64,000 bases of DNA from Roseibaca calidilacus. Its GTDB lineage: Bacteria > Pseudomonadota > Alphaproteobacteria > Rhodobacterales > Rhodobacteraceae. Position 1 is the stretch's first letter. Each line of letters starts with the position of its first letter. Made by a program: the position numbers and the translations under genes. The stretch lies in NCBI RefSeq assembly GCF_001517585.1, contig NZ_FBYC01000004.1:1426001-1490000 (forward strand). Direction: 5' to 3'. Of the stretch, positions 13,945 through 56,102 are shown piece by piece. The notes beneath the pieces are model-generated. The model was not told the origin of the DNA and did not search any database. It worked only from the letters and a program-made list of their open reading frames with translations.

Positions 13945-13958
13945 GCGAATTTGCTGGC

Positions 13959-14032: not shown

Positions 14033-15511
14033 ATGACCAGCATCAACACCAATATCGGCGCGCTGTCCGCTCAGGCGAACATGACCCGCGTCAATGACGA
14101 ATTGAACACCGCGATGACCCGCCTGTCGACCGGTCTGCGCATTAACGCCGCGAAAGACGACGCCGCAGGCATGGCGATCGGCGAGAAGATGACCGCACAG
14201 GTGATGGGCCTGAACCAAGCTGTGCGCAACGCGACCGACGGCAAGAACCTGATCGACACGACGGAATCGGCGCATGTCGAGGTATCGAACATGATGCAGC
14301 GCCTGCGCGAGCTGGCCGTGCAATCTGCCAACGACACCAACACCTCGTCGGACCGCGGGAACATCGTGGCAGAAAGCCGCCAGTTGATTGCCGAAATCAA
14401 CCGCGTCTCGGAAACCACCACCTTCAACGGCATGAAGGTTATGGATGGCAGCTTTGAAGGCAAGCAATTCCAGATCGGTGCAGATGCGAACCAGACTGTA
14501 AGCGTGAATGTTGAAAGCACGCGCGCCACCGATATCGGCGCATTCACCATGCGCTCGGACGTGAACGTGGTGGCGGCCAACGCCTCTACCATCGCGGCAA
14601 GCACGTCGATCATCGTGTCCGGTCACGCCGGTTCGGCAGAGATTACGCAGACCGCTGGCATGTCGGCCAAAGATCTGGCGGCGGCAATCAATGGCCAAAC
14701 CTCTGAAACCGCCGTGTCGGCCAATGCCCAGACCGTTGCCAAACTGTCGGGGCTAAGCGCGGCAGGCCAGCTAGCGTTCGAAATCAATGAAGTGGAATTG
14801 GGCGAAGTCGCGATCTCTGACGCGTCGGACCTGCGCAGCCTGCGCGATGCCATCAACGCGAAAACCACCGAAACCGGTGTGACCGCGCGGATGGGCGACA
14901 CCAATGCGGAAATCATCCTGACTGACACGTCTGGCGAAAACATCGCATTGTCTGGCTTTACATCGGATGATGGCGCAGGCACCGCCCTGAGCCTTGATGT
15001 CGATGTGCTGAACGCGGATGGCACGGCGTCGACCTCTGCCTTTACATCGACCACCACCATCGATGACACCGCCGCAGATGCAACCGTCACCGGGCAGGTC
15101 ACGCTGTCCTCGACCAAGGTGTTTTCTGTGCACACCTCTGACAACACCGCCGATGAAGCATTTTTTGCAGATTCCAACGGTGCCGGTAACCTAGAGCAGT
15201 TGGCAGAGATCAACCTGTCCACCGCCGATGGTGCCGCCAAGGCAGTCAATGTGATCGACATGGCGCTGGCCAAGGTCAGCCAGTCACGCTCTGACTTGGG
15301 TGCTATTTCCAATCGTCTGGACTCGACCATCTCGAACCTGACGAACATCTCGACCTCTGTCGAATCTGCTCGCTCGCAGGTTATGGATGCCGACTTCGCC
15401 GCAGAATCGACCAATCTTGCACGCGGTCAGATCCTGAGCCAGGCCGCAACGGCCATGCTGGCGCAGGCCAATGCATCCAAGCAGAACGTTATGAGTCTGC
15501 TGCGCGGCTGA
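14033..15511 (+). CDS. fliC: Flagellin
   Basis: 492-residue filament subunit. The N-terminal D0/D1 region (INTNIGALSAQANMTRVNDE; LNTAMTRLSTGLRINAAKDD; AAGMAIGEKM) and the C-terminal D1/D0 region (SRSDLGAISNRLDSTISNL; ESARSQVMDADFAAES; ILSQAATAMLAQANASKQNV, ending LLRG) are classical. The centre (about 170-400) is a Thr/Ser/Asp-rich variable surface domain. No Cys. The ATG at 14033 has GAAGGAG seven bases before it; the ATG at 14027 is too close. Its own sigma-28 promoter and terminator make it a single-gene unit. No FliS-like chaperone gene is adjacent. Confidence 0.97.
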   Translation: MTSINTNIGALSAQANMTRVNDELNTAMTRLSTGLRINAAKDDAAGMAIGEKMTAQVMGLNQAVRNATDGKNLIDTTESAHVEVSNMMQRLRELAVQSANDTNTSSDRGNIVAESRQLIAEINRVSETTTFNGMKVMDGSFEGKQFQIGADANQTVSVNVESTRATDIGAFTMRSDVNVVAANASTIAASTSIIVSGHAGSAEITQTAGMSAKDLAAAINGQTSETAVSANAQTVAKLSGLSAAGQLAFEINEVELGEVAISDASDLRSLRDAINAKTTETGVTARMGDTNAEIILTDTSGENIALSGFTSDDGAGTALSLDVDVLNADGTASTSAFTSTTTIDDTAADATVTGQVTLSSTKVFSVHTSDNTADEAFFADSNGAGNLEQLAEINLSTADGAAKAVNVIDMALAKVSQSRSDLGAISNRLDSTISNLTNISTSVESARSQVMDADFAAESTNLARGQILSQAATAMLAQANASKQNVMSLLRG

Positions 15512-15683: not shown

Positions 15684-17003
15684 ATGCATTTTAGTCCGGT
15701 GATTCTAACGGGGCAGCGCCAATCGCTTGTCGTCAACCAACAACTTCAGCAGGCGATTACATTCCTGCAAATGAGCAATGCCGAATTGCAGGCCTTCATC
15801 GAAAGCCATGCCGATGAGAACCCGTTTGTCAGCCTGAAACTGCGCCATACCGGCGACGCGCCGCGCCTGCCCAGCGGGTCTGGTGGCACAGCGCAAGACT
15901 GGGACCGCATCAGCGCGCTGCCCGATCCGGGCGCGGCTTCGCTTTATGCGCATATGGCCCAGCAGATCGCGGCGCTGGGCATGGGCACGCAAGACATGGC
16001 GCTGGCCGAAGTATTCCTTGAATCGCTTGCCCCAAGCGGCTGGCTGGAAGCACCTTTGGACGACATCGCCCTGCGTTCGGGCGCCAGCATGGACAAGGTT
16101 GAAACCATGCTGAACCGTCTGCAAAAATTGGACCCGGCAGGCGTGTTCGCCCGCGATCTGGCCGAATGCCTGCGCCTGCAAGCTGCCGAGCAGGGTTTGT
16201 TGACGCCGCTTTTCGCCAAGGTTCTGGACAATCTGCAAATGGTGGGCAACGCAGACCTGCAAGGCTTGTGCCGGATATGCGGGGTCGAGATGCCCCATCT
16301 ACGCGCGGCGCTGCGCGACTTGCGCGGGCTGGACCCGAAACCGGGCGCGCGCTTCGAACAGGCCCCCATGCCCATCCGCGCCCCAGACCTGCTGGTCAGC
16401 CAATTGCCGCAAGGCGGTTGGCGACTGGAACTGAACAATTCGACCATGCCCGCCGTCATGGTGCGCGATAACGAAAGCCGCAGCATGCGCAGCGGGGCCG
16501 ACTACCATGCCGAGCGCCTTTCGGTGGCGCGCTGGCTGTCGCGCGCGGTTCAGTATCGCAACCAAACCGTGCTAAAGATTGGCGAGGAAATCTTGCGCAG
16601 CCAGCGTGCGTTTTTCAAGGCCGGGCCAGAGCATCTGCGCCCCATGATCATGAAAGACATTGCCGATGCGGTGGGCATTCATGAAAGCACTGTCAGCCGC
16701 GTCAGCAACGCGGTGACAATTGCCACGCCCTACGGTGTCATGCCGCTGAAACGGTTCTTTTCCGCCGCCTTGCCCGCGCAGGAAGGCAATTCCGGGTCGG
16801 CCGAGGCTGTGCGCAATCGCATCCGCAAGCTGATCCAGTCAGAAACGCCGACGCGGCCCCATAGTGACGAAGGCTTGGTGCAATTGCTGGATAAAGAAGG
16901 CGTGTCTGTCGCGCGCCGCACGGTTGCCAAGTATCGCGAACAACTTGGGATCGCGACCTCAGCAGTGCGGCGCCGTCAGGCGATGCTGTCATCCCAACTC
17001 TGA
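15684..17003 (+). CDS. rpoN: RNA polymerase sigma-54 factor RpoN
   Basis: 439 residues. Region I is the Gln-rich activator-contact segment (QSLVVNQQLQQAITFLQMSN). The core-binding region follows, then the helix-turn-helix (MKDIADAVGIHESTVSRVSN) that reads the -12 element, and an exact RpoN box ARRTVAKYRE near the C-terminus for the -24 element. The start could be the ATG at 15681 or 15684; AGGAGG spacing favours 15684. Its position inside the flagellar island parallels rpoN2 of Rhodobacter sphaeroides, a copy dedicated to Fla1 genes, and nine fitting promoters occur in the window. Overlaps the convergent gene at 16989 by 15 bases. Confidence 0.95.
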   Translation: MHFSPVILTGQRQSLVVNQQLQQAITFLQMSNAELQAFIESHADENPFVSLKLRHTGDAPRLPSGSGGTAQDWDRISALPDPGAASLYAHMAQQIAALGMGTQDMALAEVFLESLAPSGWLEAPLDDIALRSGASMDKVETMLNRLQKLDPAGVFARDLAECLRLQAAEQGLLTPLFAKVLDNLQMVGNADLQGLCRICGVEMPHLRAALRDLRGLDPKPGARFEQAPMPIRAPDLLVSQLPQGGWRLELNNSTMPAVMVRDNESRSMRSGADYHAERLSVARWLSRAVQYRNQTVLKIGEEILRSQRAFFKAGPEHLRPMIMKDIADAVGIHESTVSRVSNAVTIATPYGVMPLKRFFSAALPAQEGNSGSAEAVRNRIRKLIQSETPTRPHSDEGLVQLLDKEGVSVARRTVAKYREQLGIATSAVRRRQAMLSSQL

Positions 17004-42589: not shown

Positions 42590-42605
42590 TGGCACCGTTC
42601 TTGCA
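42590..42605 (+). promoter_or_regulatory. Sigma-54 promoter of the sensor-kinase locus
   Basis: TGGCACCGTTCTTGCA, an exact match to the -24/-12 consensus, starting eight bases after the cheA3 stop and about 108 bases before the kinase ATG. Places at least the first kinase of the signalling locus in the RpoN regulon. Confidence 0.88.
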
Positions 42606-42628
42606 AACCGGTTTACACTGGTGACAGA

Positions 42629-42679
42629 GGCCAGCGGCACCTGCGCTGGCCTTAAATTCGTGTAAATCTTTACATGTAA
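42629..42679 (+). promoter_or_regulatory. Leader hairpin and overlapping palindromes before the first kinase
   Basis: Perfect 8-bp stem GGCCAGCG / CGCTGGCC (42629-42651, 7-base loop) without a good T tract. It is followed by the dyad TGTAAATCTTTACA (42661-42674), which overlaps the palindrome TTACATGTAA (42670-42679). All lie downstream of the sigma-54 element, in the predicted untranslated leader. The hairpin could end che transcripts or attenuate kinase transcripts; the palindromes could bind a regulator. Confidence 0.5.
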
Positions 42680-42712
42680 GTGTCGCCTTAACCGGGAAGG
42701 CGGGCAGTTTTC

Positions 42713-44998
42713 ATGCGCATTGTAATTGTAGAAGATAATCAACTGGTTTTGCAGGTTCTTGCCGCAGCTTTCGATAGCGTTCCAGATTACGAACTGCAAA
42801 CCTTCAGCACCGCACAGGAAGGCATTGACGCCTGTCGCAACGGGGCCGATCTGGCGATTTTCGACCACCGCCTGCCCGACAAAACCGGGGCCGATGCCAT
42901 TCGACTGCTGCGCGCTGAAGACGCCACGCAGCATCTGCCCGTTATCGTGATTACGGGCGATGACGATCAGGCCACGAAAATGGCGGCGATCAAGGCAGGC
43001 GCAACCGATTTTTTGAAGAAGCCGGTCAATATAGAAGAACTGCGCCTGCGTGTGCACAATCTTTTGGCCCTGCACGAAGCGCAAAAGCGCGCCGAAGAAG
43101 GCGAGCGCTTGCTGCGGACGGTCATCTCGGCCTCTGGCAGCAATATTGCGGTTCTGGACGCGCGCAGCCCCGGCTGCCCGGTGGTGTTCATCAGCGACGG
43201 GCTGCTGGCCGCAACCGGCAAAAGCAAAGACGAGCTTATGGCGCAGCCGCCAGAGGGTATCTGGGCCGGCGCGCAGCCTTCGAAGGCGCGCGTGCAATTG
43301 GAAAAGGCCTTGGCAGAGCGCGTGGCAGGCCGCTTTATGCTGTCATTTGCCACACGGCAGGCCGCGACATGGCGCGAAATCAGCCTGCGCCCAGTGCCCG
43401 AACCGGGGATTGCGGCGCGCTATATTGTGCTGACACAGGTCGATGTGTCCGACCTTGTTTCAGCCCGCAACACCAGTCGGACATTGTCGGATCGCATGTC
43501 CGACATCGCCCGTATCAGCGGAGCGTTCTTCTTCGAGATCGACAGCGAATGCCGCATTTCCTATGTTTCCGAGACAATGGCGCTCGGCTTGGGCGCAGTG
43601 CCAGAGAGCGTGCTTGGGCGGCATGTCGACACGTTGCATGGACGGTTTAGCGACCCGGCCAAAGCCAACCAGCGGTTTTCCAGCCTGTTCATGGCGCCCC
43701 ATAACCCGGTTGAGCATGAGATCGTCGTGCTGAATTCAGCAGACCGCAGGGAACACACCGTCCAGATCAGCGCAATCCCGTTCACCGATGCGCAAGGCCG
43801 GTTCGCGGGCTATCGTGGTTCGGGTGGCGACGTGACCGCCCTTGCCGCCGCGCGCGACGCGGCCGCAAAACTTAGCCGAGCGAAATCGGCCTTCCTGGCC
43901 ACCATAAGCCATGAGATGCGCACCCCGCTGACTGCCATCATCGGCACTGCGGAATTGCTGCGCGACGATATAGGCACCCGCGCCTGCACCGACGGTCTGC
44001 AAGAGATTACCCAAGCTGCCCAAAAGCTGAACGATGTGCTGGGCAATGTGCTGGACCTGTCCGACCTTGAAAACAATGCCATCACCCCGGTCGCGCAGGA
44101 ATTCGATATGAATGCCCTGCTGCAAGAGCTTTGCACAACCTTCGCGCGCACGGCCACGGCAAAAGGGCTGGGCTTTCGCTTCGATGGCAACAGCTTGCCG
44201 CCGGACAACCGGCTTGGCGACCGCACACGGGTGCGACAAGTGCTGCACAACTTGCTGTCCAATGCCGTGAAGTTCACGCAAAACGGTATGATAGAGGTAA
44301 AGCTTGTGCATGCCATGCCCGACTCTGTCGCCATCAAGGTGATCGACAGCGGCATTGGCATGACACAAGATGAGATCGCGCGCGCGATGGAACCTTTCGC
44401 GCAGGTTGATGACCGTATGGCGCGCGAATTTGAAGGCTGCGGCATTGGCTTGTCTATCGCACATGGGCTGACCAACGCCATGCATGGGCGGCTGGACATT
44501 CAATCTGAACCGAATGTCGGAACGGCAGCAACACTGACGCTGCCCATGCCGCAAACCAAATGTCCCAACGTTCAGAACCCCATCACCGATCTGACCGGAA
44601 TGCGTATGCTTGTCGCCGATGACAACGCCGCCAACCGCAAGATTTTGCAGGTCATGCTGCACAAGATGGGGGCCGAGCTGACCATGTGCGAAGATGGCGA
44701 TGCAGCATTGCAAGCATGGGTGCCAGAAGCGTTTGACCTGCTGTTGCTGGATATCAACATGCCAGCCATTTCCGGCACAGACGTCATCAGCCAAATTCGC
44801 CGCACCGAACAGGAATGGGCTTTGCCGCGTGTTCCGGCGGTCGCTGTCACAGCAAACACGAATTCGGAACAGCGGGCCAGCTATTTTCAAGCCGGATTCG
44901 ATGCCTGTGTCGGCAAGCCGTTTACAACGCGATCCTTGTCTTCAGCCTTTCAGACCGTGCTGCCCTTGGCGGCCAAAACAGACGCGGCCGACGGCTGA
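42713..44998 (+). CDS. Hybrid sensor kinase REC-PAS-PAS-HisKA-HATPase-REC
   Basis: 761 residues, no membrane segment. N-terminal receiver (VIVEDNQLVLQVL, Asp51 in FDHRLPD, Lys in FLKKPV), two PAS-like domains (about 130-250 and 260-380), HisKA with His400 (FLATISHEMRTPLTAIIG), HATPase (LLSNAVKFT; IDSGIGMTQDE; GCGIGLSIAHGLTNAM) and a C-terminal receiver with Asp680 (LLLLDINMPAISG). It can receive phosphate from another kinase at its first receiver and pass signals on by the last. Driven by the sigma-54 promoter at 42590. The cognate partners are not known; the kinases and regulator at 45642-52175 are candidates. Confidence 0.9.
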   Translation: MRIVIVEDNQLVLQVLAAAFDSVPDYELQTFSTAQEGIDACRNGADLAIFDHRLPDKTGADAIRLLRAEDATQHLPVIVITGDDDQATKMAAIKAGATDFLKKPVNIEELRLRVHNLLALHEAQKRAEEGERLLRTVISASGSNIAVLDARSPGCPVVFISDGLLAATGKSKDELMAQPPEGIWAGAQPSKARVQLEKALAERVAGRFMLSFATRQAATWREISLRPVPEPGIAARYIVLTQVDVSDLVSARNTSRTLSDRMSDIARISGAFFFEIDSECRISYVSETMALGLGAVPESVLGRHVDTLHGRFSDPAKANQRFSSLFMAPHNPVEHEIVVLNSADRREHTVQISAIPFTDAQGRFAGYRGSGGDVTALAAARDAAAKLSRAKSAFLATISHEMRTPLTAIIGTAELLRDDIGTRACTDGLQEITQAAQKLNDVLGNVLDLSDLENNAITPVAQEFDMNALLQELCTTFARTATAKGLGFRFDGNSLPPDNRLGDRTRVRQVLHNLLSNAVKFTQNGMIEVKLVHAMPDSVAIKVIDSGIGMTQDEIARAMEPFAQVDDRMAREFEGCGIGLSIAHGLTNAMHGRLDIQSEPNVGTAATLTLPMPQTKCPNVQNPITDLTGMRMLVADDNAANRKILQVMLHKMGAELTMCEDGDAALQAWVPEAFDLLLLDINMPAISGTDVISQIRRTEQEWALPRVPAVAVTANTNSEQRASYFQAGFDACVGKPFTTRSLSSAFQTVLPLAAKTDAADG

Positions 44999-45150
44999 GA
45001 ACACTGCGCAGTGTCCGCCCGGCGACACCTTGTAGATTTGGGCTTTTGGGGATTTCGCAAAGCTTAAACATTTGGTTAATAAATTACTGACAAGCTTTCG
45101 ATACCTTAGGAAAGCTAGGGTGCTTTCGACTTATGATAGGGATCAAGTTG

Positions 45151-45642
45151 ATGCATATACTCACTCATTTTCGTGCGCTGGCGGCAGTTGCCGTGCTGGG
45201 CGTTGTGGCCCCGGCATGGGCAGATACCCCGACAGGCCCGGTCATCCTGACGGTGACCGATGGCGCCGAAGCCCAAGCCCAGTTCGATCTGGACATGCTG
45301 GATGCGCTTGACCAGCGCGTCACAACCACCGAAACCCCTTGGTATGAAGGCCCGCAAGAGTTTTCCGGCCCGCTGATTGCCGATGTCATGGCGCAAACCG
45401 GGATGGACGGGTCAGAGCTGAATCTTGTCGCGCTGAACGACTATGCTGCGGCTATGCCGTGGTCCGACATCGTGGATTTTCCGGTCATTCTGGCGACCCG
45501 GTTGAATGGCGAAACCATGGCGGTCCGCGACAAAGGCCCGCTTTTCGTGATCTACCCGTTCGACGAACACCCAGAGCTTAAGAACGAAGTCTATTTCTCG
45601 CGCTCTGTGTGGCAGGTCAAAGCCATAGAAGTGCGCCCCTGA
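45151..45642 (+). CDS. Periplasmic molybdopterin-oxidoreductase-like protein without Cys
   Basis: 163 residues with a signal peptide (LAAVAVLGVVAPAWA). The mature part resembles the small single-domain sulfite-oxidase/YedY fold: FSGPLIADVMAQTGM, LNDYAAAMPWSDIVDFPVIL and DKGPLFVIYPFDEHPEL. It contains no cysteine, so the molybdenum ligand of that family is missing and catalysis is unlikely. It is more likely a ligand- or redox-sensing partner of the membrane kinase encoded next, to whose start codon it is fused by a one-base overlap. ATG at 45151 preferred (AGGGA eight bases before) over 45133. Confidence 0.65.
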   Translation: MHILTHFRALAAVAVLGVVAPAWADTPTGPVILTVTDGAEAQAQFDLDMLDALDQRVTTTETPWYEGPQEFSGPLIADVMAQTGMDGSELNLVALNDYAAAMPWSDIVDFPVILATRLNGETMAVRDKGPLFVIYPFDEHPELKNEVYFSRSVWQVKAIEVRP

Positions 45643-47819
45643 TGCCAACGCGGCGCCGGTCATCCCAGCCTTGGAAAGGGCGATTTGGCGTCGCATTTCT
45701 TAGCCTGCTTGCATTTTTGTTTGTGGCGGCGGCGGGCATCTTGTTCATGCGGCTGCTTGACGCAGAGCGCGACATGGATTCGATCGTGCGCGAAGACGCC
45801 GTCTGGGCGGTGTTCCAGACCGACCGCCATATGCGCGAATTGCACCGCCATGCGCAGTTGATCGCGGAAACCGGCAACACCAGTTTGCTAGATGGTTTGT
45901 TGTTTCACTACGACATCCTTTACAGCCGCGTTCAATTGCTTGAGCGCGGCACATTCTTGCTGGACCTGTCGGACCAACAGAAACTAGCCGATCTGGCCGA
46001 CAACATCAGCGATTTCGTCTTTGGCTTGACGGACCAGATTGACGCGCTCGACCCGGACATGCCCAACCTGATCCAACGTGTCAGCGACATTGCCCAACAA
46101 CTGGAAGTAAAGCGCGAATTGACAAATAACCTGCTGCTCAACGCGAATTCGGCGGCCAATGCGATTCGCGTTAACGACAGGGAAATCCGCGGGCAGATAC
46201 AGGACCAGCTTGCATTTCTGGCCTTGGGCTTGATTCTGGCCTTCGTGGGCATATTCGTGCTGCTCATGTTGCAACTGCGCAATGTCGCGCAATCCAACCG
46301 GCGCATGAGCGTTCTGCGTCTGCGAAGCGAAAAACAGGCAGAACGCGCCAAAGCGGCAAGCAAGGCGAAATCGGCCTTCCTTGCCACGATGAGCCACGAA
46401 ATTCGCACCCCGTTGAATGGAATCATCGGCTCTGCCGACCTGTTGCGCCTTGATACGGGCCCCGAAGCGCAGGCCAAGCGCATCGGCACCATCCGGGCCT
46501 CTGCCATCCTGCTGCGTGACCTGATTGACGGGATTCTTGATTTCTCGCGCATGGAAGCGGGCGTTTTCGAGGAACGCATCGTAAAGGTGGACCTTGGGGA
46601 ACTTGGCGCAATCCTGAAAGAAGCCTTTGCCGCACAGGCCGATGCGTCGGGCCTGACACTGACCGTCAACCTGCCGCCAGAGCGTATTCTGACCAATGAC
46701 GCGCGGCTTAGCCAGCTTATGATCAACCTGATCGGAAACGCGCTGAAATTTACGCCAAAGGGTGAAGTCGTGGTGCGCGGGGCGCTGCAAGACAATCTGC
46801 TTCGGGTAGAGGTACAGGATGACGGAATCGGCATTTCGGCGGAAGACCAGCGCAACCTGTTCAAGGAATTCAGCCAGATAGATGACAGCCTGTCGCGCCG
46901 TTTTGGTGGCAGCGGGCTGGGACTGGCGATCTGCAAACGCATTGTCGCAGCCTTGGGCGGCCGCATGGGAGTTTCAAGCGAGGTTGGCGTGGGCAGTCTG
47001 TTCTGGTTCGAAATTCCGGTGCAACGACTGAAAGACAACACGCCCGCCGCAGCCAGTATCGCAGCCCCGCTCCGCAGTTTGCGGGTTCTGGTCGCAGAGG
47101 ATAACGCCGTAAACGCCGAAGTCGTCATCGGGATGCTGACGCATCTGGAACATGACCACTTCTATGCCGCCAATGGCCAACAAGCGATAGAGGCCGTTGC
47201 AACTCACCTCCCCGACATTGTGCTGATGGATATGCAGATGCCTGTCATCGACGGTCTGGAGGCCACTCGGCGCATCCGCTGTCGCGGTTATGACGGGCCG
47301 ATCGTGGGCCTGACCGCCAACGCCTTTCCCGAAGACCGACGGGCCTGTCTGGAAGCCGGCATGTCCGATTTCATTCCAAAACCGATCACGCTGGCCGCGC
47401 TTGAACGCATTCTGAGCATGCATGCCGGCGCGCTGGACGCGCCGCCAAAGCGCACCTTGCCAGAGGGGGCGCAAACACCCGAACGCGGCGCGGCAAACCC
47501 ACAGCTAGAAGACCTGTTCCAAACGCTTGGCGCCGAACTGGTGAACAGCCTCATCAACCGCTTTGCCGCAGAATTGCCCGATGTACGCGCCGCATTGTGT
47601 GACGCCATCACCGCCGGGGACACCAACCAGCAAGACAACCTGTTGCACACGTTCAAGGGCGGCGCGTTGACCTTGGGGATGGTCAAGAGCGGCAATGAAG
47701 CCCATAGACTACGCGGCGTTCTTCCGCTTAAACGGGAAAACCTGGCCCAGCTTTACACCTTGGCGCAGCAGGATATCGCAATGGCGAAAGACATTATGAG
47801 CGCAGTCGAGGTACAATGA
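45642..47819 (+). CDS. Membrane hybrid kinase HisKA-HATPase-REC-Hpt
   Basis: 725 residues. Two membrane helices (about 15-37 and 190-210) enclose a periplasmic helical sensor of 150 residues. Then HisKA with His252 (FLATMSHEIRTPLNGIIG), HATPase (LIGNALKFT; DDGIGISAED; GGSGLGLAICKRIV), receiver with Asp530 (IVLMDMQMPVIDGLEA) and a C-terminal Hpt with His669 (NLLHTFKGGALTLGM). This BarA/ArcB-like layout holds a whole phosphorelay up to the last step. The periplasmic protein encoded immediately upstream is its probable input partner. Overlaps the next gene by four bases. Confidence 0.9.
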   Translation: MPTRRRSSQPWKGRFGVAFLSLLAFLFVAAAGILFMRLLDAERDMDSIVREDAVWAVFQTDRHMRELHRHAQLIAETGNTSLLDGLLFHYDILYSRVQLLERGTFLLDLSDQQKLADLADNISDFVFGLTDQIDALDPDMPNLIQRVSDIAQQLEVKRELTNNLLLNANSAANAIRVNDREIRGQIQDQLAFLALGLILAFVGIFVLLMLQLRNVAQSNRRMSVLRLRSEKQAERAKAASKAKSAFLATMSHEIRTPLNGIIGSADLLRLDTGPEAQAKRIGTIRASAILLRDLIDGILDFSRMEAGVFEERIVKVDLGELGAILKEAFAAQADASGLTLTVNLPPERILTNDARLSQLMINLIGNALKFTPKGEVVVRGALQDNLLRVEVQDDGIGISAEDQRNLFKEFSQIDDSLSRRFGGSGLGLAICKRIVAALGGRMGVSSEVGVGSLFWFEIPVQRLKDNTPAAASIAAPLRSLRVLVAEDNAVNAEVVIGMLTHLEHDHFYAANGQQAIEAVATHLPDIVLMDMQMPVIDGLEATRRIRCRGYDGPIVGLTANAFPEDRRACLEAGMSDFIPKPITLAALERILSMHAGALDAPPKRTLPEGAQTPERGAANPQLEDLFQTLGAELVNSLINRFAAELPDVRAALCDAITAGDTNQQDNLLHTFKGGALTLGMVKSGNEAHRLRGVLPLKRENLAQLYTLAQQDIAMAKDIMSAVEVQ

Positions 47820-50800
47820 ATATCGAGCACGGCACCGGCTGGGCAGAAGCCCTGATTGCGCAAGCGCAAGAAGCCAGTTTTTTGCCGGACCCAAGCGCAC
47901 AAATTCCCAAGCTGCTGGACACGATTTGCACCGCTTTGGGCGCGAATTTCTGCACGCTGGTCACGCTAGAGCAAGACCCCCCCTCTCTTCAGCCGCTGTC
48001 GGGCCTTGTCATGCCATCGGCGCTTCAGACGTTGGATGAGCCGACATTTCGTAAGCTAGAAAGCGCTGCCGCCGATATGCGGCCCGTCCGAATTGGTGAT
48101 GGGCTGTATTGCGCGCTGGTCAGCCGCCACGACGAACAATGCGGCTCTGTTCTGCTGCTGGTCGGGGTGGAACAAGGCACCGAACTGTCCAAGAGCGATA
48201 TTTCGCGCGTGGCCGAAGCGCGCGGAATCCTGCGCTTGTTCAGCTGGTGCCTTATGGAAAACAAGCAGGACCGCAAATACAAGGCCCAGCAAACGCTAGA
48301 GCGGCTGATTGATGCGCAATCCGTCGTCGTGGACCTGATCAACGATCTGTTGCAGGCCCCGATAGACCGCATCGACACGGTCATTGACGAAGCCTTGGCG
48401 CGGCTGGGCCAGTTTTGCGGGTCTGACCGGACCTATCTTTTCGTTGAAACCAGCCCCGTCACCCTGTCGAACACGCATGAATGGTGCGCCGAGGGCATCG
48501 CACCGATGAAGCAAGATTTGCAGGACGTGCCGCGGGACATGGCTGGGCCGTGGTGGCCGTTGTTCAACACGGTCGGGCATGTGTATATCGCCGATATCGG
48601 CGCGCTGGCACCGGACAGCGAACTGCGCGAGATCTTGGAAATGCAGGGCATTCTGTCGCTTTTGGCGGTGCCGCTGCAAATGAATGGGCACTTGTTCGGG
48701 TTCATGGGCTATGATGCTGTGCGCGCCCATCGCGATTTCCTGCCCGGCGAAATCTACCTTATAAAATCCGTCGCCAATGTGGTTGCAACGCTTCTGTCGC
48801 GCCGCAACATAGAGGCGCAGGCAAATCAGGCGCGGCTGCTGAAAGAGCAGGAGCAGCGCAAGCTTGAAGCAACGCTGAAAGCGATCCCGGATATTCTGCT
48901 GGAACTTGACTCTGGCCTGCGCATTACCCGCATTCATGCCAACCCTAACATTGTCCTGCCGCTGCCCGAAGAGCACCTGCTGAACAAGCCCGTCGAGCAC
49001 AGCCTGCCCCCCCATGTCGCCAAGCTGGCCCGCAGCATTCAACGCGAATTGGAAGGGCGTGATATCGCAATGGGCTATCGCTGCACGCTAGAGGTGAACG
49101 GCCAACAGAGGTGGTATTCGATATCGGCCTCTCGCAGGCCCGATGATGGCGCATCCGACACGGCTGGATATGTCGCCATCGTGCGCGATGTGACAGAGTC
49201 GCAGCTACAGCAGCAAGAGATCGAACGCTTGGGCGAAATTGCCCGAAACAGCACCAACCTTGTTATCCTGACCGACCCGATGGGCCGCATAGAATGGGTG
49301 AACCCTGCCTTCGAACGCCGCACCGGGTATCAATTGGCAGAGGTGAAGGGAAAATCGCCGGGCCGCCTGTTGCAATGCGACCTGACAGACCCCGAAACGG
49401 TTTCCGACCTACACATCGCCATAAAAAATGAAACGGCGATCAGGCGCGAAATCCTGAACCGCACCAAAACCGGAGAGCTGTATTGGATCGAGGTCTCTAT
49501 CCAGCCGCTTTTCGACGACACGGGCGAATTGAGCGGGTTCATGTCGGTCCAGACCGACATGACCCAGCATCGCATCCATGCCCGCAGCCTTGAACGCGCG
49601 CTGAAGGCCGAACAAGACGCCCGAGAGCAATTGCGCAGCGCCGTCAACGTGTTGCAAGACGCGTTCATTCAATTTGACGCCGCCCAAGAGCTTGTGCTGT
49701 GCAACAGCCGGTATCGCGATATTTTCAAAGGGATGGAGGATGTGCTGGTCCCCGGCACATCGCTGTATGATTTTTTGCGCGCGTCGATCCGCGAAGGGTA
49801 TTGCATACCCAACAGCGACGATCACGAGGCGTGGATCGCCAATCAACAAGCTGCTTTCAAGTTCAAATATGTCAACACGTCGATCTTGAGGATCGGCAGC
49901 CATTGGTATCGGCAGACCTATCAGCCCACGCCCGATGGCGGACGCATTGGCATATTGTCGGATATCACCGAATTGAAAGACGCCGAGTCCCGCGCACTGG
50001 CCGACCGGGCCCGCGCGATGGATGCGTCGCATGACGGGTTTGTATTGCTGGCGCGTGACGGTCGCGTCACCTACGCCAATGCCGCCGCCGCGCGGGTTTT
50101 CGGGCGTGCCAAAGGCCAAGCCCTTGTTGGCGAAAACTGGCGCGACCTGTTCGACGTGGACAGCGTAATGAGCACTGGCGCCCTGATGCTGCCAGAGCTG
50201 AACAAGAACGGCTCTTGGACCGGCAAGACGATCGCGCGGCGGGACGGCGGCGGGTTTACGGATGTCGAAGTCTCGGTCGCGCGCAACGGTGAACAAGGGT
50301 ATCTGTGCATTTTGCGCGACATGACAGACGCGCTAAAGGCCGAAGCCGAACGCGACGAGTTGCGCGACCATCTGGCGCTGGCACGCCGCCGCGAGGAAAT
50401 GGCGCAGATCGCGGCTGGCCTGACCCATGACTTCAACAATTTTCTGGCCGCGATTTCCAGCGCCGCAAGCCTGATGGACGGGGCCACACCGGACGATGCC
50501 AAGCAATTGGCCGAACGCATTCATGGCGCGGTGGACCAAGCCTCTGACCTTGTGCGCCGCCTGATGGATCTTGGCCGCCAGCGCGACGCGAAGCCAGAGC
50601 ATATCGACCTGCGCGCCCCTGTCACCGACGCGATAGAACTGGTGCGCTCTGGCCTGCGTGCGCCTTTGCAACTGATCGCGCACCTGCCCAACGAGCCGTT
50701 GATTGGCTGGGCCGATGCAACTGGGCTGGTGCAGGTCGTGATGAACCTGTGCATCAATGCGCGCGATGCGCTTGTGGAAACGGGCCAGAACCCCGCGCGC

Positions 50801-51511
50801 ATAACCGTCGCCCTGCGTGCGCCCTGCCCCGAAGATGCCGCGCTGGACTTCCAAGTGGGCCATTATGATCCAAACATGGACTATACCTGTCTGATTATAC
50901 AGGATAACGGCCCCGGCATGCCGCCAGACGTGCGCGACAATATCTTCACGCCCTATTTTTCCACCAAGGGCGAAGGCGGCTCCGGTTTGGGTGTGCCGAT
51001 TGTGGCGAATGCCGTTCAGACGCATTCGGGGGCTTTGTCGCTGCGTTCTGCGCCCGGTGAAGGGACAATTTTCACGATCATGTGGCCCCTGCACGCCCCG
51101 ACCGAGGGCCGCCCGTCAGATGATATCTTGCGCCCCACCTATCCGGGCTTGGTGGACAAGACCATCCTGCTCTTGGGGTCCGACACGCCAGAGGAACGGC
51201 GCCTTGCCACCGCATTGGAAGCGACGGGCGCACATGTCGTGCCCTGCGTTGCTTTGGAAGATGCCGAAGCAGTTTTGACAGAAGACCCGGACAGTTGGGA
51301 CATGCTGTTGGTCGATGCAGCTTTGCTGGACGTTGCCAGCGCAAAGCTGCGCCAATTGCTGTCGCCTGCGCAAAACGGCCCGGTTTTGGTGGCACTTGGC
51401 CATACCCCTGCTAGCGATGCTGACAGTCTGGATCTGTCCGGACCGGTCAGGTCTGCACTTTTGCATTTGGAAAATTCATTAACGTGCTATTTATATAATA
51501 CCGATCGTTAA
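47816..51511 (+). CDS. Giant soluble GAF/PAS sensor kinase with degenerate receiver
   Basis: 1231 residues, no membrane segment. Two GAF-like domains (about 25-150 and 165-330), four PAS-like domains (340-460, 475-590, 605-720, 725-840), a HisKA of the HDFNN type with His871 (AAGLTHDFNNFLAAISSAAS), HATPase (MNLCINARDAL; DNGPGMPPDVRDN; GGSGLGVPIV) and a C-terminal receiver-like domain (KTILLLGSDTPEERRL; WDMLLVDAALLDV) lacking a clear acidic pair and lysine. HDFNN kinases include CckA, the phosphorelay kinase feeding CtrA. Coupled to the membrane kinase by overlap and followed after 19 bases by the NarL-type regulator. Confidence 0.87.
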   Translation: MNIEHGTGWAEALIAQAQEASFLPDPSAQIPKLLDTICTALGANFCTLVTLEQDPPSLQPLSGLVMPSALQTLDEPTFRKLESAAADMRPVRIGDGLYCALVSRHDEQCGSVLLLVGVEQGTELSKSDISRVAEARGILRLFSWCLMENKQDRKYKAQQTLERLIDAQSVVVDLINDLLQAPIDRIDTVIDEALARLGQFCGSDRTYLFVETSPVTLSNTHEWCAEGIAPMKQDLQDVPRDMAGPWWPLFNTVGHVYIADIGALAPDSELREILEMQGILSLLAVPLQMNGHLFGFMGYDAVRAHRDFLPGEIYLIKSVANVVATLLSRRNIEAQANQARLLKEQEQRKLEATLKAIPDILLELDSGLRITRIHANPNIVLPLPEEHLLNKPVEHSLPPHVAKLARSIQRELEGRDIAMGYRCTLEVNGQQRWYSISASRRPDDGASDTAGYVAIVRDVTESQLQQQEIERLGEIARNSTNLVILTDPMGRIEWVNPAFERRTGYQLAEVKGKSPGRLLQCDLTDPETVSDLHIAIKNETAIRREILNRTKTGELYWIEVSIQPLFDDTGELSGFMSVQTDMTQHRIHARSLERALKAEQDAREQLRSAVNVLQDAFIQFDAAQELVLCNSRYRDIFKGMEDVLVPGTSLYDFLRASIREGYCIPNSDDHEAWIANQQAAFKFKYVNTSILRIGSHWYRQTYQPTPDGGRIGILSDITELKDAESRALADRARAMDASHDGFVLLARDGRVTYANAAAARVFGRAKGQALVGENWRDLFDVDSVMSTGALMLPELNKNGSWTGKTIARRDGGGFTDVEVSVARNGEQGYLCILRDMTDALKAEAERDELRDHLALARRREEMAQIAAGLTHDFNNFLAAISSAASLMDGATPDDAKQLAERIHGAVDQASDLVRRLMDLGRQRDAKPEHIDLRAPVTDAIELVRSGLRAPLQLIAHLPNEPLIGWADATGLVQVVMNLCINARDALVETGQNPARITVALRAPCPEDAALDFQVGHYDPNMDYTCLIIQDNGPGMPPDVRDNIFTPYFSTKGEGGSGLGVPIVANAVQTHSGALSLRSAPGEGTIFTIMWPLHAPTEGRPSDDILRPTYPGLVDKTILLLGSDTPEERRLATALEATGAHVVPCVALEDAEAVLTEDPDSWDMLLVDAALLDVASAKLRQLLSPAQNGPVLVALGHTPASDADSLDLSGPVRSALLHLENSLTCYLYNTDR

Positions 51512-51530
51512 CAAAACAAGGGACGTATGC

Positions 51531-52175
51531 GTGGGTGATTTCAAGGACAATATCGCCAACCAAGCGCGCATCTTATTGGCAGATGATCACAGTCTGCTTT
51601 GCGACACACTTAGCCTGTTTCTATCCAGCGATGGCAAGGCAACTGTAACAACAGCCAGCAGCTATGATGAAGCGGCTGCGATTGCCGAACGCGACGGCCC
51701 TTTCGACCTGATCTTGCTGGACTACCGAATGCCCGGCATGAACGGTCTGGGTGGGCTGAAAGACGCGATTTCGCGCAAATTGGCGCCACATGTCGCCATC
51801 ATTTCGGGCGATTTCAATCGCGCGTTTGTCGAAGATGTGGTTGCCGCCGGTGCCAGCGGGTTCTTGCCCAAATCGCTCTCCGCCAAATCCATGCGCAATG
51901 CGATTTATTTCATGCTGATGGGCGAGGTGTATCTACCGGCAGAGCTTATGCAAGAGGCCGGTCAACCTAGCGACCCGCTATTGCGAAACCTGACCAAGCG
52001 CGAATTGCAGGTGCTGCGTGGCCTGTGCGAGGGCAAGTCGAACAAGGAAATCGCGCTGGAATTGACGGTATCCGAAGCCACGATCAAGCTGCATGTCACA
52101 ACGCTGTGCCGCCGGTTGAACGTGTCGAACAGAACGCAGGCCGCGCTGGTTGCGCGCGACCGCGGGTTTTCATAA
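51531..52175 (+). CDS. NarL/LuxR-type response regulator
   Basis: 214 residues. Receiver (ARILLADDHSLLCDTLSLFL, Asp64 in LILLDYRMPGMNG, Lys in GFLPKSLS) and LuxR-type helix-turn-helix (LTKRELQVLRGLCEGKSNKE, then IALELTVSEATIKLHVTTLC). GTG start with AAGGGA upstream; the nearby ATG at 51526 hits a stop after three codons. Probable transcriptional output of the upstream kinases. Convergent with the CtrA-like gene. Confidence 0.88.
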   Translation: MGDFKDNIANQARILLADDHSLLCDTLSLFLSSDGKATVTTASSYDEAAAIAERDGPFDLILLDYRMPGMNGLGGLKDAISRKLAPHVAIISGDFNRAFVEDVVAAGASGFLPKSLSAKSMRNAIYFMLMGEVYLPAELMQEAGQPSDPLLRNLTKRELQVLRGLCEGKSNKEIALELTVSEATIKLHVTTLCRRLNVSNRTQAALVARDRGFS

Positions 52176-52206: not shown

Positions 52207-52911
52207 CTAGCCGACCAATTGCATGTCATCGACACCGGACTGGTCACGCAGGATATAGCCGTGCCCCCAAACCGTGTGGATCGGGCAGTCGCCGTCCAAT
52301 GCATCTGACAGCTTCTTGCGCAGCTTGCAGATGAACACGTCGATGATCTTCACGTTCGGCTCGTCTATGCCGCCATATAGAAGGCTAAGCAGGGTTTCCT
52401 TTTCCAGCGTGCGCCCTTTGCGCAGCGCCAGCGCTTCCAGCAAGGCATATTCACGGAATGTCAGCGGAACCTCTTTGCCATTTGCCAAGACGGTGCGCGA
52501 ATCCATGTCCATCACCAGCGGGCCCACTTCGATCGTATTGCGGACATGGCCATTCGTGCGGCGAACCACGGCTTGGATCCGCGCGCTCAGTTCCGCAATC
52601 TTGAACGGTTTGGTAATGTAGTCATCGGCCCCGGCTGCGAAAGCGGCCAGCTTGCTGTCCATTTCCAAGTCGCCCGACAAAACCAACATGGGGAACTTCA
52701 CGCCCCGCTCGCGCGCCTTGCGCAGAACGTCCAGACCGGATTCACGCTTCAGCCGCAAATCCAGAAGCACCGCGTCAAAGCTGAATTCGGTAATCATATC
52801 CAGCGCTGACGGGGCGTCGTTCACAATCGTCACATTGAAATGCGCTTTGAACAGCATGGCGGCAATGGCTTGGGCCATAAGCCCGTCATCTTCTACAACT
52901 AGTACTTTCAT
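52207..52911 (-). CDS. CtrA-like OmpR-family response regulator
   Basis: 234 residues: receiver with Asp51 (FDAVLLDLRLKRESGL) and Lys101 (DDYITKPFKIAELSARIQAV), and a winged-helix domain very close to CtrA (VPLTFREYALLEALALRKGR; LYGGIDEPNVKIIDVFICKL; HTVWGHGYILRD). The receiver and the region between the domains differ from the well-known Rhodobacteraceae CtrA, so this looks like a paralogue rather than CtrA itself. ATG at 52911 has GGAG seven bases before it. CtrA controls motility and gene-transfer-agent genes in this order. Stands opposite the NarL-type regulator and may take phosphate from the same relay. Confidence 0.8.
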   Translation of the reverse strand: MKVLVVEDDGLMAQAIAAMLFKAHFNVTIVNDAPSALDMITEFSFDAVLLDLRLKRESGLDVLRKARERGVKFPMLVLSGDLEMDSKLAAFAAGADDYITKPFKIAELSARIQAVVRRTNGHVRNTIEVGPLVMDMDSRTVLANGKEVPLTFREYALLEALALRKGRTLEKETLLSLLYGGIDEPNVKIIDVFICKLRKKLSDALDGDCPIHTVWGHGYILRDQSGVDDMQLVG

Positions 52912-53555
52912 GGCTATCTCCAATAACCTTCATCTGAATTTAAGCATGATAGACGTGTTAAATTTTCTCAAAGCCGCAAAAGCATAGTAAATTCGCATAA
53001 GGTGCATGTTTTTAGCCTTTTGGCCAGAAACCTAACCTTTTGTATGGGCTGTTCTGAGCGGCGCTTTCCCATCGGCCTTTTTTGGCCTTGCCAGCGCCCC
53101 GTTGCGGCCAGCATTCAGACACATCTGCGCCACAATTCAAACCCGCGTCGGACAGTGTGCGCCTTGCCCAGAAAGCCGGCCGCAGCCGATTCGTAAAACG
53201 TTAAGCATGCGCGCCAGTCAGCTTCGAGGACATGCGGAAATGATCCCCGAGAAGTGGTCCAAGCCCGGAACAGTGACAAAGGTTCACGGTAGAGACCATC
53301 GTCTAGGTTGATGCGTATAATCAGTCGGGCGCGCGATCTGCCAAGCGTTCAAATGCGAAAACCTCCCCGAATGGCAACGCAAACAAGCCGATGTTTGGCA
53401 AACGAAGCCCCATCTATTTTGTTTATCATGGCGGATCACGGCGCGCGCACGGGGCCACCGGGCACCATTGGCCGCGCAGGATGGACTGTCATAGACCCGT
53501 CATGCAGCACTGTTAGGGTCCCGCGGAATAGGGCTTAAAACAGGAGATGTTCACT
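52912..53555. other. Gene-free intergenic stretch between ctrA-like gene and phnD
   Basis: About 640 bases without a convincing gene: short open frames exist but lack ribosome sites and family features. The left part is A/T-richer than the surroundings and should hold the promoter of the CtrA-like gene; two TTAA motifs occur there. The right part holds the PHO box at 53486-53503 and the phnD leader. No RNA gene was recognised. Confidence 0.6.
53486..53503 (+). promoter_or_regulatory. PHO box upstream of phnDCE
   Basis: Direct repeats CTGTCAT, four bases, CCGTCAT: 7-mers on an 11-base period, as bound by phosphorylated PhoB. It lies 53 bases before the phnD start, suiting activation under phosphate starvation. 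Confidence 0.85.
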
Positions 53556-54440
53556 ATGACCCGACTGAAGCACTTCACCGCACCGGCCGCCATTGCCGCT
53601 GTTCTTCTTGCAGGCGCTGCAAATGCGCAATCCGTGGCCGATGCTTGCCCCGCGCCGCTGCGCATGGCCGATACCGGCATTGAAGGGATGGGCGATCTGA
53701 GCGAAGCTTTCGGTCCGTTTGCCGAAACCTTCGAAGAACTGACCGGGGTTGAACTGGCCCTGTATTCGCTGTCGAACCGCACCGCTGCGGGCACCGCGCT
53801 GCAATTCGACGAAGTTGAATTCGTCTTTGCCGGGCCGTCTGAATTCGTGCTGTTCCAGCAACTGGCCGAGATGGACATTCTGTTCTCGATCGTGCGTCCG
53901 CATTATGGTTCCAGCTTTGTGGTCAAGGCTGACAGCGACATCCAGTCGCTGGCCGACCTGAAGGGCAAGCGCGTGGCGCTGAAGGATGTTGGCTCCACCT
54001 CTGGGCACATCTTCCCGATGATGCTGATGGCCGAAGCCGGGCTGGACCCCGAGGCCGACGCAGAGATCATCATGGCCGGTGATGCACGCATCCAAGTGCT
54101 GATCAATGACGATGTCGACGCAATGGGCGGCGGCAACAAGGACTGGGACGCGATCCGCGAGCAAGACCCCGACACCGAATACCGCCTGTTGGCACAGACC
54201 GACACGCTGCCCGGTGACCCGGTCGTGATGCGCGCCACCCTGCCGCAGGATTGCCGCGACGCTCTGCGCGCAACCCTGGCCGAGCATTCCGACGTGCTGT
54301 GGGAAAGCCTGACCTCGACCGAGCGCAATGCCGACAAGTTCATCGAGCGCGACGCCTATATGTCGTTCGAGACGGACCCCGCCATCTACGATGTCGTGCG
54401 CATGGCGTACGAGGTTGCCGGGATCGCTCTGGACGACTGA
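53556..54440 (+). CDS. phnD: Phosphonate/phosphate ABC transporter binding protein PhnD
   Basis: 294 residues with a signal peptide (AAIAAVLLAGAANAQ). Typical PhnD-family segments: EVEFVFAGPSEFVLFQQLAE, SSFVVKADSDIQSLADLKGK, RVALKDVGSTSGHIFPMMLM and VMRATLPQDCRDALRATLAE. Captures phosphonate or phosphite-like ligands in the periplasm; the exact ligand cannot be told from sequence. The ATG at 53556 has GGAG nine bases before it; the ATG at 53547 is too close. No C-P lyase genes are in the window, so uptake may serve enzymes encoded elsewhere. Confidence 0.9.
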   Translation: MTRLKHFTAPAAIAAVLLAGAANAQSVADACPAPLRMADTGIEGMGDLSEAFGPFAETFEELTGVELALYSLSNRTAAGTALQFDEVEFVFAGPSEFVLFQQLAEMDILFSIVRPHYGSSFVVKADSDIQSLADLKGKRVALKDVGSTSGHIFPMMLMAEAGLDPEADAEIIMAGDARIQVLINDDVDAMGGGNKDWDAIREQDPDTEYRLLAQTDTLPGDPVVMRATLPQDCRDALRATLAEHSDVLWESLTSTERNADKFIERDAYMSFETDPAIYDVVRMAYEVAGIALDD

Positions 54441-54461
54441 ACAGCGTGACCTAAACGTGTT

Positions 54462-54490
54462 GGGCGGCCTTTCTGCGGGGAGGGCCGCCC
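54462..54490 (+). terminator. Stem-loop between phnD and phnC
   Basis: Perfect 8-bp stem GGGCGGCC / GGCCGCCC with a 13-base loop, no T tract. Such hairpins after binding-protein genes usually stabilise the upstream message or reduce read-through, giving more PhnD than PhnC/PhnE. Confidence 0.6.
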
Positions 54491-54528
54491 ATCATTGTTG
54501 ACAGAATGAAAGACAAGGGGGCCGTCAG

Positions 54529-55314
54529 ATGAATGCAGCCATAACCTGTGAAGATGTGCGTGTCAGCTATGGCGACCTGCAAGTTCTGCGCGGGGTGTCG
54601 TTTGACATTCCTGCGGGGCAAGGGGTTGTTTTGCTGGGCGCAAACGGCTGCGGAAAATCTACCTTGTTGCGCAGCCTGAACGGGCTGGAAAAGCTGCAAT
54701 CAGGCCGCGTGATGATCCATGGGGCCAGCCTGACCGACGCATCGCGCCGCGATTTGCGGAAGATCCGGCGCAGCATGGGTTATGTGTTTCAGCAATTCAA
54801 CCTTGTGCCCCAACTAAGCGCCTTTCAAAACGTGCTGCTTGGGGCGATGGGGCGGCACCGGCTGGGGCTATTGTCTTGCCTTGGGCTGACAGCATCGGCA
54901 GAGGAACGCGCCCGCGCCATGGCCTGTCTGGACCGCGTGGGCATGGCAGATCGCGCGCAACACCGCCCATCGCAGCTATCGGGCGGGCAACAGCAGCGCG
55001 TGGCGATTGCACGCATGCTGATGCAGGCCCCGAAAGTGGTGATCGCGGATGAACCCATCGCAAGCCTAGACCCCAAGGCCGGGCGCGAGGTTCTGGACCT
55101 GTTATGGCGGATCGTGCGCGAGGAAGGGTTGAGCATGCTGTGTACGCTGCACCAGCTTGAACTGGCGCAGGAATATGCGGACCGGATCATCGGCATGAAA
55201 GCGGGACAGGTCGAGATTGATTCCGCCATTGCCGAGACCGACAGCGCGCAGATGAATGCGCTTTACAGCGGCATGACCCGGGTCGATGCCATTGCCGGGG
55301 GAACCGCAGCATGA
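54529..55314 (+). CDS. phnC: Phosphonate ABC transporter ATPase PhnC
   Basis: 261 residues, complete ABC ATPase: Walker A GANGCGKST, Q loop YVFQQFNLVPQLSAFQNVLL, signature LSGGQQQRVAIARML, Walker B VVIADEPIASLD and H-loop region LCTLHQLELAQEYADRIIGM. The insert with HRLGLLSCLGL between Q loop and signature is typical of PhnC. Overlaps phnE by four bases. Confidence 0.94.
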   Translation: MNAAITCEDVRVSYGDLQVLRGVSFDIPAGQGVVLLGANGCGKSTLLRSLNGLEKLQSGRVMIHGASLTDASRRDLRKIRRSMGYVFQQFNLVPQLSAFQNVLLGAMGRHRLGLLSCLGLTASAEERARAMACLDRVGMADRAQHRPSQLSGGQQQRVAIARMLMQAPKVVIADEPIASLDPKAGREVLDLLWRIVREEGLSMLCTLHQLELAQEYADRIIGMKAGQVEIDSAIAETDSAQMNALYSGMTRVDAIAGGTAA

Positions 55315-56102
55315 ACACGAATTCTTCCATCCCGCCGCGTTTTCGCGCGCCATCGGCGCTGACTTGGGTGCTGGTCGTTGGTTTTGCCGCGTTTTTCATA
55401 CAGGGGCTGATTGCTTCGGATCTGTCGCTGGACCGGCTGGTGCGCGGGGCCAGCAACCTTGTGCGCTTCATCGCGCAGGCCGTGCCGCCGGATTTTTCGC
55501 GCGCGCCCAATATTGCCGATGCCATGCTGGAAACGCTGAATATTGCCGTGGTGGGTGTGACCTTTGGCTGTCTGTTTTCCATTCCGCTGGCCTTGCTGGC
55601 GGCACGCAACACCGCCCCGAACGCGGTTGTGCGCACATTGGCACGGTTTGTGATTTCGGTTTCGCGCACCATTCCTGACCTGATCTGGGCGCTGATTTTC
55701 GTGGTGACCGTGGGTCTGGGGCCATTGGCAGGCATTCTGGCCATTATCATGGACACGATCGGCTTTGCCGCGCGGTTTTATTCCGAACGGTTCGAGGAAG
55801 TTCAGAAAGGCCCGTCAGAGGCGCTGACATCGACCGGCGCAGGCCGGTTGTCGGTCATCTTCGGCGCGATCCTGCCAGAGAGCTTTGCCTCCATGACCGC
55901 GACATCGCTGTTCAGCGTAGAAAAGGCGATCCGCTCTGCCGTAACGCTGGGACTTGTCGGCGCGGGCGGGATTGGTGTGGAATTGTCTACAGCCATGCGC
56001 CTGTTCCGCTACGATCAGGCAGCCGCGATCATTCTGGTCATTCTGGTGGTGGTGATCGTGTTCGAGCAGCTGTCTTCCAGCATTCGCAAGCGGATTATCT
56101 AA
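55311..56102 (+). CDS. phnE: Phosphonate ABC transporter permease PhnE
   Basis: 263 residues with about six membrane segments. The permease coupling loop is visible (EEVQKGPSEALTSTGAGRLS, then VIFGAILPESFASM) along with the PhnE pattern SRTIPDLIWALIFVVTVGLG. Only one permease gene is present, so it would act as a homodimer. Last gene of the PHO-box operon. Confidence 0.93.
   Translation: MNTNSSIPPRFRAPSALTWVLVVGFAAFFIQGLIASDLSLDRLVRGASNLVRFIAQAVPPDFSRAPNIADAMLETLNIAVVGVTFGCLFSIPLALLAARNTAPNAVVRTLARFVISVSRTIPDLIWALIFVVTVGLGPLAGILAIIMDTIGFAARFYSERFEEVQKGPSEALTSTGAGRLSVIFGAILPESFASMTATSLFSVEKAIRSAVTLGLVGAGGIGVELSTAMRLFRYDQAAAIILVILVVVIVFEQLSSSIRKRII

Follow-up and report, generated by a model that had tools for sequence, protein, structure and literature searches.

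A block of genes that follows a chemotaxis operon in Roseibaca calidilacus is, taken as a whole, best explained as a pterin-sensing phosphorelay island, a reading given a probability of roughly 0.55. The block lies within the 64,000-nucleotide stretch of DNA analysed (the window), and its features, with other genomes and loci cited below by handle, are as follows.

42590..42604, + strand: exact match to a sigma-54-type promoter, TGGCAC-N5-TTGC, 8 nt past the cheA3 stop
42628..42652, no strand: perfect 9-bp inverted repeat, G+C-rich, 7-nt loop, between the sigma-54 site and K1
42652..42667, + strand: CtrA-like box TTAA-N7-TAAA, 46-61 nt before K1 (2 mismatches to TTAA-N7-TTAAC)
42713..44998, + strand: K1, REC-PAS-PAS-HisKA-HATPase-REC hybrid kinase (domains, receiver grouping)
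45065..45080, + strand: CtrA-like box before the PruR gene (2 mismatches)
45133..45642, + strand: PruR-type periplasmic protein, predicted to bind pterin (profile search, fold, residues; apparent signal peptide by eye)
45642..47819, + strand: K2, membrane HK-REC-Hpt kinase, DTB-like, with WX7H and not WX7E (ORF from 45609)
47816..51511, + strand: K3, GAF/PAS-HisKA-HATPase kinase with a VirA/CckA-like transmitter
51137..51493, + strand: decayed receiver at the K3 C-terminus
51531..52175, + strand: NarL/LuxR-type response regulator, conserved partner of K3
52207..52923, - strand: CtrA2, a CtrA paralogue, convergent, the cluster's sixth member, with the ATG at 52911 as its likely start

An earlier note on this DNA had described a five-gene block, and all five open reading frames are indeed present (42713-44998, 45133-45642, 45609-47819, 47816-51511 and 51531-52175 in the ORF listing of the window). 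Their Pfam domains are, in order, REC-PAS-HisKA-HATPase-REC, a weak Oxidored_molyb match, HisKA-HATPase-REC-Hpt, GAF/PAS-HisKA-HATPase and REC-LuxR. The cheOp3-like operon upstream ends at 42582. Overlap of the last genes, also claimed, holds at the only two overlapping junctions, PruR/K2 (TGATG from 45640, where the likely K2 start, the ATG at 45642, overlaps the PruR stop) and K2/K3 (ATGA at 47816), but not for K3 and the regulator, which lie 19 nt apart; 134 nt separate K1 from the PruR gene. In place of the single output regulator proposed, two are present, the NarL-type regulator and the CtrA paralogue. The gene list of the earlier note had stopped short of this paralogue, located just past its end, and its description of K3 was without the decayed C-terminal receiver.

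The small protein, previously called periplasmic sensor-like, is present as claimed, and by profile and fold it is now identified as a PruR type, predicted to bind pterin. Its Pfam match to Oxidored_molyb was sub-threshold. A profile of 13 orthologs, on the other hand, found the PruR structures 7kos (E 4e-57) and 7rkb (E 3e-54), followed by two more pterin-binding entries. An AF2 model of the protein (mean pLDDT 79) has a SUOX-type fold and best matched Agrobacterium PruR 7kos (47% identity; TM 0.74 by query, 0.84 by target), with PruR ahead of sulfite oxidases. The relevant section of a review gives Trp160 and Tyr104 as the PruR pterin contacts, and the lack of a molybdenum-ligand Cys as a PruR feature (PMC13259868). 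Both residues are invariant in 13/13 orthologs; the window protein holds no Cys, and 7 of the 13 orthologs hold one to three. The size (about 170 aa), the apparent secretion signal (by eye) and the position directly upstream of a membrane partner are likewise those of the PruR type. An oxidoreductase function, also considered, was replaced by the PruR assignment on the profile, the pterin residues and the fold. As in the PruR-DcpA pathway of Agrobacterium tumefaciens, the gene lies just upstream of, and coupled to, that of the membrane partner, and the SUOX-type fold, Trp160 and Tyr104 are shared with PruR as that review section describes it (PMC13259868). The partner there is a GGDEF-EAL enzyme, whereas here it is a hybrid kinase, and Pfam found no c-di-GMP domain in the block proteins.

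In the same review section, the partner of PruR is the c-di-GMP enzyme DcpA in one type of pairing and a TorS/BaeS-like kinase in the other, the PruR-DTB systems (PMC13259868). K2, by analogy with the published PruR-DTB kinases, would be the membrane partner of the PruR-type protein. TorS is its best NCBIfam model, with a score below the cut-off, and the PruR gene is directly upstream, as is typical of the TorS/BaeS-like kinases; the H-box His, the receiver Asp and Lys and the Hpt His are invariant in 13/13 sequences. Matches to K2 (E up to 1e-90) occur in 7/394 genomes of the family and in 14/37 of the genus, this genome included. A short periplasmic motif divides these kinases: it reads WX7E in all seven whose partner is an HD-GYP protein, and WX7H in 15/15 K2 proteins from loci or genomes with K1 (the window and 14 others). 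The two types are also separated in the K2 tree (support 100/99), in which the window kinase groups with those of G208 and G222 (100/99). In the K2 of G227 the Trp of the motif is lost, and that genome showed no K1 match, nor any PruR match beyond chance fragments in 18 kb around K2, even at E 10; such a loss, with no PruR nearby, is expected if the motif serves PruR docking. K2 does not have a DcpA-type periplasmic domain with WX7E, and because its motif is WX7H it is named DTB-like and kept outside strict PruR-DTB membership. PruR docking could be altered by this motif. The review section on PruR-DTB systems describes the same combination, PruR together with a TorS-like sensor kinase whose periplasmic part is similar, but with a conserved WX7E, and it makes no mention of a receiver-gated kinase, a K3-NarL pair or a CtrA paralogue, which are extras here.

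The position of K1 was illuminated by related operons. PruR, a kinase of this kind and a REC-HD-GYP protein occur together in seven operons, those of G130, G401, G383, Agrobacterium, two Rhizobium and Aureimonas, with the HD domain identified by Pfam in G130 and Agrobacterium and by reading or annotation in the other five. HD-GYP proteins are of the c-di-GMP phosphodiesterase type. In the last four the PruR, kinase and receiver-HD genes are on plasmids, with an MCP gene nearby in 3/4, and the Agrobacterium and G130 kinases carry an Hpt (Pfam). The gene before PruR is K1 in G257, G037 and G135 and a receiver-HD-GYP gene in G130, G401 and G383. We take the RpfC/RpfG architecture as the comparison for this set: K2 shares the membrane-HK-REC-Hpt order and the sister operons encode REC-HD-GYP, whereas in this block a PruR gene precedes the kinase and none of the proteins, K1 included, has an HD domain by Pfam, hence no REC-HD-GYP partner of the RpfC/RpfG type.

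Searches with the receivers of K1 pointed to the same relationship. With the N-terminal receiver, the ten top-ranked of 257 plasmid records (best 30 viewed) were HD phosphohydrolases, nine near-alike from Agrobacterium and one from Rhizobium, each with a PruR match 2.6 kb away; the C-terminal receiver, as control, gave no annotated HD protein among the best 15 of 650, 6 of those 15 being unannotated. In reverse, four HD-GYP proteins compared with 45 window proteins each found the K1 N-terminal receiver best (91 versus 54 bits for Agrobacterium). A receiver tree of 61 rows, which exclude RpfG-type receivers of operons without PruR and drew a long-branch warning with the HD-GYP receiver L168 flagged, joined the K1 N-terminal and HD-GYP receivers in one clade (99/99). 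The HD-GYP receivers fall among those of K1, which require two changes, so that the direction of exchange is read from the HD-GYP form being the more widespread. We infer that K1 occupies the REC-HD-GYP position, a phosphodiesterase output having been exchanged for a receiver-gated kinase; phosphotransfer from K2 to K1 would be the best inference from this exchange of partners.

K3 forms a separate and widespread pair with the NarL-type regulator; records in which the two occur alone include those of Rubellimicrobium, Roseicyclus, Marivita, Paracoccus and Shimia. The K3 receiver is intact in four distant proteins (L053, L054, L061, L063), decayed in the window, G222, G208, G224, G229, G225 and G227, and absent in G226 and G202. 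CtrA2 adjoins the regulator in ten loci (the window, L029, L030, L031, L032, L034, L035, L037, L044 and L165). For 14 bare K3-regulator pairs, some on short contigs (L053, L054, L061, L063, L064, L070-L077 and L079; L009, which ends behind the regulator, and L078, with no regulator seen, were excluded), no fetched stretch contained it, and it was likewise not seen in those of G225, G230 and L069. CtrA2 is 51% identical to the genome's own CtrA, with 63% over the DNA-binding half and 47% over the receiver half, and stands beside CtrA in the receiver tree (98/96); its score against NCBIfam RespRegCtrARhodob, 255 against a 350-bit cut-off, led to its being classed as a CtrA paralogue. The CckA-ChpT-CtrA phosphorelay is echoed by a paralogue with nearly the same recognition helix and by the presence of CckA among the NCBIfam models matched by the K3 transmitter, but the genome holds a separate CtrA and the paralogue misses the CtrA cut-off. 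Since CtrA2 keeps the CtrA recognition helix, it probably acts on CtrA-type sites.

The complete six-gene order recurs in seven loci of two genera (the window, G222, G224, G229, G208, G226 and G257; in G208 K1 is cut by a contig end, the remainder being on a second contig). Conservation of the five-gene order in relatives, which had been proposed as a check, was thus seen in these loci but not in G225 and G230, where the module genes are scattered. K1-PruR-K2 only was found in G206, G219 and G204, on short contigs or at contig ends, and in G135, whose fetched 20 kb contain neither K3 nor the regulator nor CtrA2; a Rhodobacteraceae MAG (L069) holds PruR, K2, K3 and the regulator. The genes are therefore a real conserved unit that could form a phosphorelay, as suggested earlier, and the earlier statement that no described system has this exact set agrees with the searches of open-licence papers, whose listings showed none. 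It could still be argued that the systems are merely co-located and functionally separate, with PruR-K2-K1 on one side, K3 and its NarL-type regulator on the other, CtrA2 as an orphan and no cross-talk. The bare K3-regulator pairs of many Rhodobacterales, the G135 locus and the decay of the K3 receiver, such that K3 may phosphorylate the regulator directly, are consistent with such a separation, but it leaves unaccounted for the six genes held together in seven loci of two genera and the restriction of CtrA2, within the loci fetched, to the combined cluster; we consider it unlikely, though far from negligible. The putative joining of the K3 pair and CtrA2 with the rest into one pathway, as the phosphorelay island requires, finds its support solely in synteny.

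Possible CtrA control was evaluated in the promoters. The published CtrA box is TTAA-N7-TTAA in the pertinent part of PMC6180460, and this box with a final C was scored in the 120 nt upstream of module genes against dinucleotide shuffles. With all rows, mismatches numbered 40 in 17 K1 upstreams (shuffled 56.5), 33 in 16 PruR upstreams (53.7) and 24 in 11 CtrA2 upstreams (32.8), each at 0/400, the orthologs being related and not independent. A smaller first set, leaving out K1 of G229, G221 and G232, PruR of G229, G206 and G219 and CtrA2 of G229, had given 0/300 for K1, 0/300 for PruR, 4/300 for CtrA2, 19/300 for the regulator and 267/300 for 17 control upstreams, whose G+C content was 0.58 against 0.45-0.50 for the test promoters. 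G206 and G219 have no good PruR box; the result holds with all omitted and held-out rows restored, and the held-out loci alone gave 0/400 (K1), 42/400 (PruR) and 47/400 (CtrA2). Bare K3 upstreams gave 46/400, and the box was also enriched in HD-GYP operons without CtrA2 (0/400). The box before PruR is exact in G230 and L069 and has one mismatch in G225 and G215, and similar boxes lie near the same place before K1 in several orthologs. CtrA control of the module genes thus appears plausible. As a genome-wide marker the exact box was uninformative, with 9 matches against 13 control matches and no enrichment.

In the mechanism proposed for the pterin-sensing island, a reduced pterin of the tetrahydromonapterin type would, by homology, bind the periplasmic PruR protein, which when loaded would dock on the periplasmic part of K2 and shift its kinase/phosphatase balance. 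K2 would then relay phosphate His-Asp-His within itself, and from its Hpt to the N-terminal receiver of K1, making K1, as the exchange of partners suggests, a receiver-gated kinase. The terminal receiver of K1 (via the K2 Hpt or another Hpt) and the K3/NarL-type pair could, judging from synteny, have the NarL-type regulator and the CtrA paralogue as their two DNA-binding outputs. CtrA2 would target CtrA-type sites, perhaps including some upstream of the module genes themselves; the likeliest targets may be genes of motility or chemotaxis, as the recurrent neighbourhood weakly suggests.

A broader proposal is more tentative, possible yet on balance doubtful: that a pterin pathway switched its output when a phosphodiesterase-driving receiver was fused to a kinase (or swapped for an existing fusion), Glu gave way to His in the docking motif along the same branch, and a second CtrA sharing the CtrA DNA sites was recruited. 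Extracellular pterin redox state could then influence the CtrA regulon (flagella, chemotaxis), competing there with CckA-ChpT-CtrA. The PruR-kinase (DTB) systems are a class from a genome survey, for which the review section names no downstream partner (PMC13259868). The sister operons suggest a concrete one, the receiver of REC-HD-GYP proteins, and the block suggests a natural case in which a kinase replaced the HD-GYP output and a CtrA paralogue was added. Together they connect pterin signalling, c-di-GMP control and the alphaproteobacterial CtrA network in a way that can be tested.

A different account would make the block a branched relay of the RpoN flagellar regulon, transcribed from 42590. 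In its favor, the sigma-54 site claimed to open the block is exact, and such matches are commoner in the window than chance predicts (4 versus 0.44 expected; 0/100 shuffles reach 4); the only rpoN match of this genome lies within the Fla1 cluster (16503-16976); the block directly follows the chemotaxis operon; and G225, G230 and L069 hold module genes, although scattered, in the Fla1 region. The perfect hairpin at 42628-42652, with no T run after it, nevertheless sits between the expected sigma-54 start and K1 and leaves reading of the block from this promoter in doubt. The exact site is present in only 1 of 14 K1 upstreams, that of the window; the best of the other 13 have two mismatches (G206, G219) and the remaining 11 at least three. 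The sigma-54 promoter before K1 is not conserved and does not mark the block as part of an RpoN/Fla1 regulon, and no rpoN match was found in G222, G224 and G229, all three module carriers. The RpoN link drawn earlier is not supported by these results, on which sigma-54 control as a conserved feature is rejected.

Co-occurrence with Fla1/cheA3 loci, another proposed check, did not prove general. The cheA3 gene is present in only 4/37 genomes of the genus, and in the other three (G225, G228, G230) the module genes are scattered or incomplete in the fetched stretches. In six other genera with a CheA3-type gene the block was absent from the 18-19 kb around it (0/6), where the sole matches were regulator-like ones in G039 (46%) and G097 (34%) and, in G161, one of a generic kinase type (31% to K2). 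On this survey a contiguous five-gene Fla1-linked unit across the family is rejected, and origin as a flagellar RpoN relay is judged quite improbable.

In the window itself, Pfam identified a Fla1-type flagellar cluster with fliA, flhA, flgT, flgA, a sigma-54 activator, fliD and flagellin and, on the opposite strand, flhB to fliF (fliE and fliH named by position only), and the chemotaxis operon encodes a split CheA pair, CheR, CheB, CheW, a ParA-like protein, a cytoplasmic-type receptor and CheY. The names Fla1, cheOp3, PpfA, TlpT and CheY6 are presumed for window genes after Rhodobacter sphaeroides. Elsewhere, the G257 block lies beside cheR-cheB (Pfam-confirmed) and that of G037 beside two MCPs, cheD and cheB (Pfam), cheY and cheA (tblastn); in G228 K1 is in the Fla1 region and CtrA2 directly after cheA3. 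Searches with window proteins, supplemented by Pfam for part of the genes, found no chemotaxis or flagellar gene in the fetched flanks, which differ per locus, of G222, G224, G229, G208 and G226 (full module) or G135 (K1-PruR-K2), although G208 and G222 are closest to the window kinase on the K2 tree. On that tree the label "beside che or fla" changes five times, four forced by starred branches, and clusters no more than shuffled labels do (219/500 as low), so the motility neighbourhood arose or was lost several times. The wiring to motility proposed earlier thus retains the recurrence of che/fla neighbours in several lineages and loses its tie to Fla1 or RpoN. That the N-terminal receiver of K1 serves as a sink or allosteric receiver of another kinase, such as the adjacent CheA pair, and so couples chemotaxis to K1, is very improbable, for although cheA genes adjoin in the window and G037, this receiver groups with PruR-operon receivers away from CheY6, and cheA is missing from the fetched flanks of most module loci. 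Among the flagellar genes themselves, flhA is present in 37/37 genomes of the genus, a second flhA lies elsewhere in this genome, and what looks like a flagellin of 1180 aa at window 11969-15511 most probably reflects an open frame running upstream of a normal flagellin start.

The periplasmic Trp motif (WX7E or WX7H), putatively the docking site for the pterin-binding protein PruR, is lost in a relative of the membrane HK-REC-Hpt kinase K2 that has no adjoining PruR gene (locus L044 from genome G227, 7441-9729), and this relative is a natural control for PruR docking. On a Paracoccus liaowanqingii plasmid (locus L175, 3705-7390), folE2, the GTP cyclohydrolase gene of pterin synthesis, lies directly 5' of a PruR-EAL pair, a position that fits pterin as the signal. 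A gene for a methyl-accepting chemotaxis protein was also seen near the PruR-kinase-HD-GYP operons of Rhizobiaceae plasmids (loci L172, L173 and L174).

Three further features are as follows.

Window 53547-56102: phosphonate-type ABC transporter set, adjoining the CtrA paralogue
Window 2404-4950: flhA, one of two in the genome
G000:C4:1156423-1158396 (source genome): flhA, the other of the two

The transporter's binding protein was assigned by Pfam and NCBIfam matches, and its ATPase and permease by reading. Given two flhA genes, the genome probably encodes a pair of flagellar systems, of which one is Fla1 and has an rpoN gene of its own. A 1180-codon open frame (window 11969-15511) has flagellin at its end; the flagellin most likely starts internally, at MTSINTNIGAL, and the frame was rejected as one coding whole, the part 5' of this start being most likely non-coding.
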